Below the pieces are notes generated by a model. The model made no database searches. It saw only the letters and a program-made list of their open reading frames with translations, and was not told the DNA's origin. A DNA stretch of 34,332 bases from Pseudomonadota bacterium (GTDB lineage: Bacteria > Pseudomonadota > Alphaproteobacteria > Rhizobiales > JAKPQE01): positions 1-34,332 of the forward strand of contig JAKPQE010000140.1 of NCBI GenBank assembly GCA_029572955.1, in the 5' to 3' direction. The translations under genes and the position numbers were made by a program. Each line of letters begins with the position of its first letter. Position 1 is the stretch's first letter. Of the stretch, positions 14,717 through 34,332 are shown piece by piece.

Positions 14717-14758
14717 TCCCCCTCACCCTGTCCCTCTCCCCCAAGGGGGCGAGGGGAC
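14717..14758 (+). repeat. GC-rich hairpin repeat R1 (TG type)
   Basis: Starts CCCTCACCCTGTCCC and folds CCCTCTCCCCC against GGGGGCGAGGG. Its reverse complement recurs at 20472-20509 (R4). Confidence 0.7.
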
Positions 14759-14912: not shown

Positions 14913-14950
14913 AGCCCTCTCCCCTTGGGGGGAGAGGGTTGGGTGAGGGG
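14913..14950 (-). repeat. GC-rich hairpin repeat R2 (AA type)
   Basis: CCCTCTCCCC/GGGGGAGAGGG hairpin followed by TTGGGTGAGGGG, with AAAAAG in front. Its reverse complement recurs at 20407-20446 (R3), including the flanking AAAAAGCCCTCTCC block. Confidence 0.7.
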
Positions 14951-15016
14951 GGCGACCGGTTGGCCCGCGCTTCGTTGGACGAGGGGGGCGACAGGATAGC
15001 CGGCGTTCCGTTGGCC
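14945..15016. repeat. imperfect tandem repeat, 2 x 36 bp
   Basis: Two adjacent 36-bp units beginning GAGGGGGGCGAC and ending CGTTGGAC / CGTTGGCC. It abuts R2. Confidence 0.6.
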
Positions 15017-18922: not shown

Positions 18923-19993
18923 ATGACCGACACAGTGTTTTGCGAGACCGAGAAGCGCCTGAGGGCCCTCGCCGCGGCCCGTATCCTCGTCCTCGACGGG
19001 GCGATGGGCACGATGATCCAGCGCCTGAAGCTCGACGAGGCCGGCTATCGCGGCGCGCGCTTCGCCGACTGGAAACAGGACGTGCGCGGCAACAACGACC
19101 TGCTCAACCTGACGATCCCGGCGGCGGTGCGCGACATCCACGTCGAGTATCTCGAGGCCGGCGCCGACATCGTCGAGACCAACACCTTCTCCTCGACGAC
19201 GATCGCCCAGGCCGACTACGGCATGGAAGACCTCGTCTACGAGCTCAACTACGAGGGCGCGCGGCTCGCCGCCGAGGCCTGCCGCACCGTCGAGGCGCGC
19301 GATCCGTCGCGGCCGCGTTTCGTTGCCGGCGCCATCGGCCCGACCAACCGCACCGCCTCGATCTCGCCGGACGTCAACAATCCGGGCTTCCGGGCGATCA
19401 CCTTCGACGAGCTGCGCATCGCCTATGCCGAGGCGGCACGCGGCCTCATCGACGGCGGCGCCGACATCATCCTGATCGAGACGGTGTTCGACACGCTGAA
19501 CGCCAAGGCGGCGATCTTCGGCGTCGAGGAAATCTTCGTCGAGAAGGGTCGCCGGCTGCCGCTGATGATCTCGGGCACGATCACCGATCTTTCCGGGCGC
19601 ACGCTTTCCGGCCAGACGCCGGAGGCGTTCTGGTATTCGCTGGCGCACGCCAGGCCGTTCTCGATCGGCCTCAACTGCGCCCTCGGCGCCAAGGAGATGC
19701 GGGCCCACATCGCCGAGCTTTCGCGCGTCGCCGATACGCTGGTCTGCGCCTATCCGAACGCCGGGCTGCCCAACGAGTTCGGCGAATACGACGAGAGCCC
19801 GGAAGCGATGGCCGCGCTCGTCGGCGAGTTCGCCCGCTCCGGCCTCGTCAACATCGTCGGCGGTTGCTGCGGCACGACCCCGGATCACATCCGGGCGATC
19901 GCCGGGGCGGTCGCGGGCGTCGCGCCGCGCGTCGTGCCGGTCATCGAGCCGAAACTCAGGCTGTCTGGGCTGGAGAGCTTCGTCACCGTGTAG
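18923..19993 (+). CDS. metH: methionine synthase, homocysteine-binding module (split MetH part 1)
   Basis: 356 residues equal to the N-terminal homocysteine-methyltransferase barrel of cobalamin-dependent MetH. Zinc ligands are visible as Cys252 (GLNCALG) and Cys315/Cys316 (VGGCCGTTP). Start motif [13 protein letters not shown] and [16 protein letters not shown] are typical. In one-piece MetH the sequence runs on from KLRLSGLE..F into the pterin domain; here the gene stops after SFVTV, in the natural linker. The other three modules are encoded 0.6 kb downstream. It would need to work in trans with part 2. A GGAG site precedes the ATG and the gene follows metF by 20 bp. Split metH is, to my memory, also found in some other alphaproteobacteria. 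Confidence 0.92.
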
Positions 19994-20049
19994 GCCGCGA
20001 TTGCTGTCGCGGGTGACGGGGCGAAATCGACGGGCGGGGGAGACGATCG

Positions 20050-20397
20050 GTGCGCGGCAGGAAGAACCCGCTGACAGGAATGGCGCGGGTGCTGAGGCGG
20101 CGACCGACCGATGCTGAACAGAAATTGTGGTTCGAGCTCCGGGACCGACGATTGCGGGGTTTCAAGTTCCGCAGGCAGATGCCGAAAGGGAACTACGTCG
20201 TCGATTTCGTGTGCGAGGACCGCAGGCTCGTCATCGAACTCGACGGCGGGCAGCATGGGGACCGCAAAGCCGCGGACGCGGAACGTTCGGCCTATCTCGT
20301 GGCCGAAGGGTATCGGGTGCTGCGGTTCTGGAATAACGAGGTGACGGAGAACGTCGAGGGCGTGTTGTCGGTCATCGTCGAAGCATTGGAAGACTAG
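20050..20397 (+). CDS. DUF559 endonuclease-like protein (Vsr/PD-(D/E)XK fold)
   Basis: 115 residues of the DUF559 family, related to very-short-patch-repair type nucleases. Visible motifs: RRRPTDAEQKLWFELRDRRL (17-36), FKFRRQMPKGNYVVDFVC with Asp52 (38-55), LVIELDGGQH with Glu63 and Asp65 (60-69), and GYRVLRFWNNEV (87-98). These are consistent with an active metal-dependent nuclease, though activity of the family is inferred. GTG start at 20050 with a GGGGGAGA site; ATG at 20080 is the alternative. It lies exactly between the two halves of metH and is followed within 10 bp by hairpin repeats R3 and R4. It has no methionine-related role and looks like an inserted gene. Confidence 0.85.
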   Translation: MRGRKNPLTGMARVLRRRPTDAEQKLWFELRDRRLRGFKFRRQMPKGNYVVDFVCEDRRLVIELDGGQHGDRKAADAERSAYLVAEGYRVLRFWNNEVTENVEGVLSVIVEALED

Positions 20398-20406
20398 GAA
20401 CGAATA

Positions 20407-20446
20407 TCCCCCTCACCCAACCCTCTCCCCTAGGGGGGAGAGGGCT
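20407..20446 (+). repeat. GC-rich hairpin repeat R3 (AA type)
   Basis: Begins CCCTCACCCAACCC, folds CCCTCTCCCC/GGGGGAGAGGG and ends GGGCTTTTT. On the plus strand the hairpin plus T5 could also terminate DUF559 transcription. Reverse complement of R2. Confidence 0.72.
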
Positions 20447-20471
20447 TTTTCGGGGACGCGAGTGCTGGCGT

Positions 20472-20509
20472 TCCCTCTCCCCGGCGGGGAGAGGGACAGG
20501 GTGAGGGGG
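20472..20509 (-). repeat. GC-rich hairpin repeat R4 (TG type)
   Basis: CCCTCTCCCCGGCGGGGAGAGGG hairpin arms (loop GC) then ACAGGGTGAGGGG. Reverse complement of R1. It ends 72 bp before the start of metH part 2. Confidence 0.72.
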
Positions 20510-20580
20510 CGTCAGTCAGGTGCGGCGCATCCGCTGGATTGCGCCCGGTTCGGTTGAAGGCGACAGGCAGGAACTCCAAA

Positions 20581-23253
<2,673 letters not shown>

Positions 23254-34025: not shown

Positions 34026-34332
34026 GTGAAGATGATTCTGCCGATCGCGCTCCTCGGAGCGCTGATGGTCGCTGGCTGCGACCAGAAGACCGAAGAAAGC
34101 AAGGCCCCGGCGACGCCGCCGGCCGGTGAGCAGAGCGGCATGTCCGGTATGTCCGGCATGGGCGGCATGTCCGGCGAGCAGAGCGGCATGTCCGGCATGA
34201 GCGGCATGGGCGGCATGTCCGGCGAGCAGAGCGGCATGTCCGGCATGTCCGGCATGGGTGGCATGTCCGGCGAGCAGAGCGGCATGTCCGGCATGTCCGG
34301 CATGGGTGGCATGTCCGGCGAGCAGAGCGGCA
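34026..34332 (+). CDS. methionine-rich tandem-repeat lipoprotein (3' end beyond window)
   Basis: Partial gene, at least 102 codons. Starts at GTG (AGGAGA six bases upstream; an ATG two codons on is poorly spaced). Signal peptide MKMILPIALLGALMVAGC with lipobox VAGC, Cys18 being the lipidated residue. A short linker DQKTEESKAPATPPAG is followed by 16-residue repeats EQSGMSGMSGMGGMSG, four complete copies plus part of a fifth when the window ends. Each repeat has four methionines in M-x-x-M-x-x-M-x-x-M spacing, a pattern that in other proteins binds Cu(I) or Ag(I). Metal binding here is inference. The protein would be periplasmic, outer-membrane anchored and unstructured. No copper genes are seen in the window. 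Confidence 0.82.
   Translation, partial: MKMILPIALLGALMVAGCDQKTEESKAPATPPAGEQSGMSGMSGMGGMSGEQSGMSGMSGMGGMSGEQSGMSGMSGMGGMSGEQSGMSGMSGMGGMSGEQSG
34128..34332 (+). repeat. 48-bp coding tandem repeat, >=4.3 copies
   Basis: Units at 34128-34175, 34176-34223, 34224-34271, 34272-34319 and 34320-34332 (cut). Units begin GAGCAGAGCGGCATGTCCGG and differ only at a few positions (GGT/GGC and one TCC/AGC), so the array is young or kept uniform by recombination. Confidence 0.93.

Follow-up and report, generated by a model that had tools for sequence, protein, structure and literature searches.

A DUF559 nuclease gene and PIT hairpins in the gap of a split metH: a candidate two-part system of the REP/RAYT kind

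In the genome studied here (G000), the methionine synthase gene metH is divided into two reading frames, and the gap between them holds a gene for a small Vsr-like nuclease of the DUF559 family together with two palindromic hairpin units. It is more probable than not that this insert represents a copy of a REP/RAYT-like system with two parts, the nuclease gene and "potential intrastrand triplex" (PIT) units, and that it is lodged in a permissive metH gap. Within such a system, and with similar probability, the PIT units would both surround the nuclease gene and be scattered as inverted doublets of two types, A and B. Nuclease and hairpins go together in three respects, namely their location, their presence in genomes and the match between the left and right hairpins of a locus.

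The split metH locus and its insert

The window, i.e., the whole stretch of 34,332 nucleotides that was analysed, is contig C97 of G000. In it, metF (PF02219, 322.3 bits) precedes the split metH. Part 1 (18923..19993, plus strand, 356 aa) encodes the homocysteine S-methyltransferase domain (Pfam S-methyl_trans, PF02574, 327.8 bits) and ends with the stop codon TAG at 19991-19993. Part 2 (20581..23253, plus strand, 890 aa) starts with GTG at 20581 and carries the folate, B12 and activation domains (Pfam Pterin_bind, B12-binding_2, B12-binding and Met_synt_B12). The methionine synthase model PRK09490 is covered from position 7 to 353 by part 1 and from 355 to 1233 by part 2; thus, no metH sequence is missing at the cut. 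The first-pass annotation had described metH as split in its linker with a DUF559 gene and the repeats R3-R4 in between, on which open reading frames, coordinates, Pfam and PRK09490 now agree. Its remark that the joined ends resemble the continuous linker of one-piece MetH is borne out by relatives such as G001, whose metH is uninterrupted across the site of the join. The gap between the halves measures 590 bp and contains the DUF559 gene as well as R3 and R4, about 139 bp lying outside both the gene and the doublet.

The DUF559 gene (20050..20397, plus strand, 115 aa) has a GTG start at 20050 and a stop at 20397, and its reading frame looks intact. Its product matches PF04480 with 142 bits, compared with a curated cut-off of 20.6, and has a solved relative in PDB 3hrl, an "Endonuclease-Like Protein" (E 2.7e-28). 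The positions D52, E63, D65, H69, D76, R79 and R92, which are 99-100% conserved in 82 aligned DUF559 proteins, are all kept, so the protein retains the residues of its predicted nuclease family. The Pfam entry for DUF559 still gives the function as unknown.

The window holds four hairpin units, whose strand is given as plus when the tail CCCTCACCC comes first on the plus strand: R1 (14718..14756, plus, type B), R2 (14915..14951, minus, type A), R3 (20408..20444, plus, type A, followed by CTTTTT) and R4 (20473..20509, minus, type B, inverted relative to R3). They share one plan, in which CCCTCTCCC..GGGAGAGGG form the stem and the third block, GGGTGAGGG, stands on one side. The motif CCCTCWCCC occurs 11 times in the window, against 1.09 expected and with none of 100 shuffles reaching 11, and all 11 occurrences lie within R1-R4. 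This plan is that of the E. coli TM_ECO elements, for which the consensus CCCTCNCCCN3-6GGGNGAGGGN3GGGNGAGGG has been given (Holder et al. 2015, PMC4666352). R1 and R4 match the consensus in full, R2 and R3 only with a two-base instead of a three-base second linker. By this plan, the hairpins of the window are probably PIT/TM_ECO elements. Folded as single strands, R2 (z -2.87), R3 (-3.46) and R4 (-2.43) do better than their shuffles, R1 (z -0.52) no better. Rfam returned three weak matches, all under the gathering scores; two of the three fall on PIT units, and all were taken as chance.

R3 and R4 form an A+B doublet with tails pointing outward. A second such doublet, R1-R2, also with outward tails, is located 5.5 kb from the DUF559 gene. 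The exact pattern finds 14 units in G000, four of them in the window, and ten of the 14 make five doublets, all five being +-, A+B and tails outward. Each of these, R1-R2 and R3-R4 included, pairs a 20-base type (A) with a 21-base type (B). On the other side of the nuclease gene, a candidate decayed hairpin was read by eye at 19994..20021 (no strand assigned), with the stem CCGCGA/TCGCGG and the degenerate tail GGGTGACGGGG; the inverted-repeat score of this DUF559 copy is 17, which is not above control. R3 and the CTTTTT that follows it (20421-20449) are terminator-like by scan and could stop transcription before a metH part 2 that lacks a promoter of its own; a sigma-70 scan of 19900-20700 found no promoter for part 2. 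Close to the end of the window, head-to-tail 48-base units (GGCATGTCCGGCGAGCAGAGC...) occupy 34075-34323, and their plus strand would read Gly-Met-Ser-Gly-Glu-Gln-Ser.

Association of DUF559 genes with PIT units

The surroundings of DUF559 genes were surveyed at 80 loci (77 distinct) from three sets: 31 loci made up of the two of G000 itself and the 29 matches with the greatest similarity to the DUF559 protein of the window, 20 loci picked by hand further down the same ranking, and 29 loci that were the best of a phylum search, eight of them from the window's order. At 63 of the 80 loci, the motif CCCTCNCCC is present no more than 300 bp away (30/31, 12/20 and 21/29, respectively). Its density near DUF559 is 6.88, 4.50 and 7.70 per kb in the three sets, compared with 0.136, 0.353 and 0.464 further out. 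It flanks both sides in 43 of the 80, with tails inward in 36, and the window has it on one side only. Within 300 bp, the motif was not found at 17 of the 80 loci, including eight of the 20 picked by hand; some of the motif-free loci carry other hairpins (L246, L280, L287).

Since the "far" DNA is mostly coding, controls based on PIN genes and on intergenic DNA only were added. The PIN control comprised 30 loci in 22 of the same 30 genomes, the remaining eight being without a PIN match. The motif was near one of the 30 PIN loci versus 30 of 31 DUF559 loci, and on both sides of none of the PIN loci versus 21 of 31. For the intergenic null, units were spread over intergenic DNA only in genomes with at most 20 units, 12% non-coding DNA being assumed. 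In these low-copy genomes, 14 units lie within 300 bp of 27 DUF559 loci where 0.28 would be expected, and nine of the 27 loci have at least one unit. A measure that does not depend on the motif points in the same direction: scored against 612 shifted-frame controls, the inverted repeat formed by the flanks passes the 99th percentile at 54 DUF559 loci out of 77 and is not above control at 23. Left and right flanks match better within a locus (median 44.5) than between loci (21; p 7e-14). As the hairpin type varies among loci (CCTTCTCCC, CCCTCCCCC, ACCTCTCCC and others), this match is not a trivial effect of one fixed sequence.

Whole genomes were compared as well, for 397 members of the order; 128 contain both units and DUF559, 47 units only, 39 DUF559 and no exact unit, and 183 neither, all PIT counts resting on one exact pattern that misses variant hairpins. 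The association holds within families (OR 8.4, p 6e-11, 21 informative families), and each of the 21 genomes with at least 50 units carries DUF559. Thirteen of the 47 unit-bearing genomes without DUF559 at the threshold used have 10-49 units, and a different search turned up a decayed match in one of these 13, G077. From these comparisons of sequence, DUF559 genes and PIT units belong together. The RAYT family (Y1_Tnp, PF01797) was detected in six of 22 genomes (the 21 with at least 50 units plus G000); G000 and 15 of the 21 gave no match. With Y1_Tnp undetected in 16 of 22, RAYT was rejected as the PIT partner in most of these genomes.

The arrangement of units and genes was followed in several genomes. 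On contig C1 of G382, neighbouring units at most 1 kb apart are 24 times +-, three times -+ and never ++ or --. One -+ pair, 370 bp apart, encloses a DUF559 gene, and the other two are 79 and 298 bp apart, with no DUF559 seen inside the 298-bp pair. Among the matches listed, one of three DUF559 genes of G382 thus sits in an exact -+ unit pair, and the other two (L271, L279) have flanking inverted repeats of different make. DUF559 genes also lie within both -+ pairs of G346 that span about 370 bp, corresponding to two of its four DUF559 matches among those listed, and two other -+ pairs of this genome are less than 65 bp apart. The reverse arrangement occurs in G001, where DUF559 lies inside a + ... 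- doublet with tails outward. On pSymB of S. meliloti Ak57 (L345), the gene is placed between two doublet copies with an inverted-repeat score of 162. At the end of metF in L098, the tail GGGTGAGGG can, by eye, supply both the TGA stop of the preceding gene and the GTG start of DUF559. There are also 28 plasmid records with a DUF559 match; of seven taken, five have a nearby motif of this class (one of them from Deinococcus), and two have no motif.

The association extends to Escherichia coli K-12 MG1655, in which ycjD (1351407-1351760) is annotated as DUF559. TM_ECO no. 9 of 23 (1351204-1351239) lies 168 bp from the 3' end of ycjD, which is itself overlapped by a degenerate unit recognised by eye. 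The pairs formed by TM_ECO elements in E. coli are always A+B (five of five) according to the portion of the earlier study available to us (PMC4666352). Matches to the ycjD locus were obtained in 5375 of 5426 E. coli genomes, 3333 of which cover at least 80%. In strain MRSN346647, which is without ycjD, homology to K-12 ends at base 264 and restarts at base 916 of the 1101-base query, and no such motif occurs in 24 kb around the locus; hairpin and ycjD are therefore missing as one block in this one strain. One E. coli control genome gave no PF04480 match. As a separate observation, ycjD and its PIT units (L238, about 1351163-1351814 in MG1655; L342) occupy the site of the efflux operon of other E. 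coli, between fabI and sapF. The presence of ycjD instead of an efflux operon in phylogroups A, B1 and C has been described in a paper whose main text, as far as available, does not mention repeats (PMC12817139).

Breaks in the metH linker and their contents

The first-pass annotation suggested that a nuclease/repeat cassette had landed in the linker without destroying either half of the enzyme, and proposed a comparison with relatives. The association is real and both halves are whole, but the cassette as the cause of the split is unsupported. Ninety metH loci of the order were compared, split loci and co-locations with DUF559 being over-sampled on purpose; 71 are split, 16 fused and three undecided. 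A first set of relatives (30 loci) comprised 16 fused loci, 12 split loci and two with part 1 outside the locus. A tblastn search with the window's DUF559 protein found DUF559 in the gap of three of the 71 split loci (G000, G012 and G232) and not in the other 68. A fourth case is G003, where the contig ends inside a DUF559 gene and a hairpin stands before metH part 2. The comparison returned all three states (16 fused, 68 split without DUF559, three split with it), and metH is fused in G001, the sister of G000. Split metH with unrelated spacers, which the first-pass annotation had named as a refutation if found across the whole clade, is common, and the idea that the cassette created the split is not supported on this point.

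Of the 68 spacers without DUF559, 49 are no longer than 200 bp (median 64), and the longer gaps hold PIN genes with a partner ORF, methyltransferases, a GIY-YIG nuclease or DUF6508. The gaps of L006, L119, L120, L124, L126, L130 and L147 contain PIN-like genes, in many cases accompanied by a small partner ORF. Pfam, run on two of these, scored PIN at 31.3 bits in L006 and at 23.3 in L124, just below the cut-off of 23.6; a separate PIN search placed matches in L119 too, and one partner ORF had no Pfam match. In three families (L011, L018, L028 and L148; Pfam on L011 and L018), the two parts of metH are separated by the gene of a methyltransferase with about 230 aa, which may act together with the split enzyme. 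Even a single genus can harbour two cargoes, GIY-YIG in the gap of L094 (G059) and DUF559 with a 228-aa ORF of unknown kind in that of L093 (G012). The gap of L096 (G310) is filled by another palindromic repeat (CGTCATCACCGGGCTTGTCCCGG and a near inverse), and its congener G232 has DUF559 there.

DUF559 also occurs in the metF-metH1 gap of five loci (G346, G382, G292, G094 and G226), positions of metH and DUF559 being compared where both were among the matches listed. In G077, a decayed DUF559 match with one TGA (C4:353065-353217) is found about 1.3 kb ahead of the part-2 match of a fused metH and probably lies in the metF-metH gap. The DUF559 copies of the metF/metH region are scattered over several places of a weakly resolved DUF559 tree (110 columns, 47 of 79 inner branches open, G000 and G012 unseparated). 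A single old insertion inherited in this region was rejected on the basis of this scatter.

At least ten transitions between the fused and the split state fall on a metH tree built from 69 part-2 sequences, and ten remain when three rows for which no part 1 was observed are omitted. G001, the one genome of the same family that was compared, is sister to G000 with an SH-aLRT of 99, both on long branches (0.36-0.40); in the same tree, G024 pairs with Rhizobium sophorae and G036 falls among Bradyrhizobium, from which the order would be Hyphomicrobiales. The best metH match from a named organism has 74% identity. The 68 of 71 split loci without DUF559, together with the ten or more state changes, led us to reject the cassette as a general cause of the metH split. 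Because the linker often breaks without DUF559, and DUF559 is found in metF-metH1 gaps as well, its presence does not require the break. For the window's lineage, the evidence leans toward the split having come first, as the roughly 139 bp of non-cassette DNA has the size of an ordinary spacer.

An origin of the split on the G000 branch through the cassette, which would have interrupted a fused metH and supplied both the part 1 stop and the part 2 start, is unlikely. This would suit the fused metH of the sister genome, the end of part 1 right at the conserved linker and the identical GTG on either side of the insert (19988-19990 and 20581-20583), yet three-base matches are frequent by chance, and the non-cassette DNA in the gap, the 68 split loci without DUF559 and the repeated changes of state all speak against it. 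A precise empty site or a target-site duplication was not found among congeners compared by eye, the intergenic DNA of the relatives being too diverged; G370 has an apparent single unit, G320 a decayed unit and G277 none, and G226 and G262 are too far apart for comparison.

Proposed mobilisation and relation to known systems

In the proposed two-part system, the DUF559 nuclease would recognise PIT hairpins and nick or cut there, and the subsequent repair would move or copy the nuclease gene, and likewise the non-autonomous doublets, to permissive intergenic sites. Among these would be the metF-metH1 gap and a metH gap that is already split. The linker between the homocysteine and folate domains presumably tolerates breaks, with the two halves functioning as separate proteins, because both are so often found open; a tolerant linker would in turn allow the gap to gather cargo of many kinds. 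In this model, DUF559 would mobilise the PIT units. The more general version of this proposal is plausible, if somewhat doubtful. In it, the spread of PIT/TM hairpins would be the work of DUF559, in taxa ranging from Hyphomicrobiales to E. coli and perhaps Deinococcus, and would represent a second and unrelated type of REP mobilisation, in which a Vsr-like nuclease takes the place of the HUH transposase. Hairpin types would co-evolve with nuclease lineages, and the linkers of split genes would be among the landing sites.

Vsr-like nucleases occur as homing enzymes, and the PIT units may be landing sites rather than cargo: DUF559 would cut PITs that are free of the gene, repair would copy the gene in between or beside units, and the units would not be spread by the nuclease. 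With movement confined to the gene and the PITs serving as its targets, this version agrees with the data almost as closely as the moving-unit model. If every PIT is a potential target, the gene should turn up in varied positions, and it does lie inside a doublet (G001), beside one (the window and E. coli) and, on pSymB of S. meliloti (L345), between two. Nevertheless, we consider this version unlikely, since few sites are filled (among the matches listed, 11 of 12 genomes with at least 100 units have one to three DUF559 matches, and G246 has eight) and the matching of left and right hairpins within a locus is a better fit to a moving unit.

Alternatively, DUF559 could be a structure-processing or repair nuclease that stabilises PIT-bearing DNA, so that selection keeps both while the units are spread by something else. 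PIT sites have been linked to instability in E. coli in the available part of one study (PMC4666352), and the VsrA protein of Caulobacter, which carries a DUF559 domain, has been tied to DNA damage in the accessible portion of another (PMC12907096). Functional selection of this kind requires no physical adjacency, however, and adjacency is the strongest signal of all, which makes a pure repair role quite unlikely. It is very improbable that the hairpins are ordinary terminators of transcription placed behind small genes by coincidence, despite the terminator-like R3 with its T run: PIN genes in the same genomes are without units, the units stand on both sides of DUF559 genes and in doublets, and PIT motifs gave neither promoter nor terminator activity in a previous study, according to PMC4666352.

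The DUF559-PIT pair can be compared with several known systems. In REPIN/RAYT (TnpA-REP), short palindromes occur genome-wide in inverted pairs, and one enzyme gene is framed by the same palindromes. The pairs spread over the genome recur here, and the motif stands on both sides of the enzyme gene in 43 of the 80 DUF559 loci but on one side only in the window; repeated inverted palindrome pairs, the criterion for REPINs, were found in G000 (five of five doublets +-, A+B) and on contig C1 of G382 (24 +-). The enzymes differ, as a PD-(D/E)XK Vsr-like DUF559 nuclease is present here and an HUH Y1 transposase there. The DUF559-PIT pair is therefore of the REP/RAYT kind by architecture and not a member by enzyme, given that the HUH transposase was not found in most of these genomes. 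Split inteins and Vsr-like homing nucleases likewise accompany fractured genes, in which a nuclease gene separates the two parts of a housekeeping gene. The likeness ends with the intein: neither metH half has an intein domain, as Pfam finds MetH domains only. The split MetH of Paracoccaceae and relatives (L175, L179, L182, L187 and L188) is cut at the same linker with the homocysteine domain apart, whereas its spacers of 38-59 bp are too short for a nuclease gene.

The PIT/TM_ECO elements of the earlier study share the sequence plan, the A and B types and the A+B inverted pairs with those described here; the main text available to us (PMC4666352) names no enzyme for them, the word "endonuclease" occurring zero times, whereas DUF559 is the likely partner here. 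The VsrA/ScmA system of Caulobacter likewise has a DUF559 Vsr-like nuclease that acts on the host genome, but in the portion of the paper at hand it is read as mismatch repair tied to a methyltransferase and directed at one methylated motif, with no link to hairpins (PMC12907096). In the open-licence literature of PubMed Central, no paper was found that links DUF559 to REP, REPIN, PIT or triplex repeats.

The linker between the MetH domains emerges as a place where breaks recur and selfish genes dock, a point of relevance to the way in which multi-domain enzymes separate. Of greater importance than the metH split is the likely role of DUF559, a widespread small nuclease family, as the PIT partner. 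The data suggest that DUF559 may be the missing partner that spreads or uses PIT hairpins, and pairing the two makes both open questions testable, one of them in E. coli K-12 by means of ycjD.
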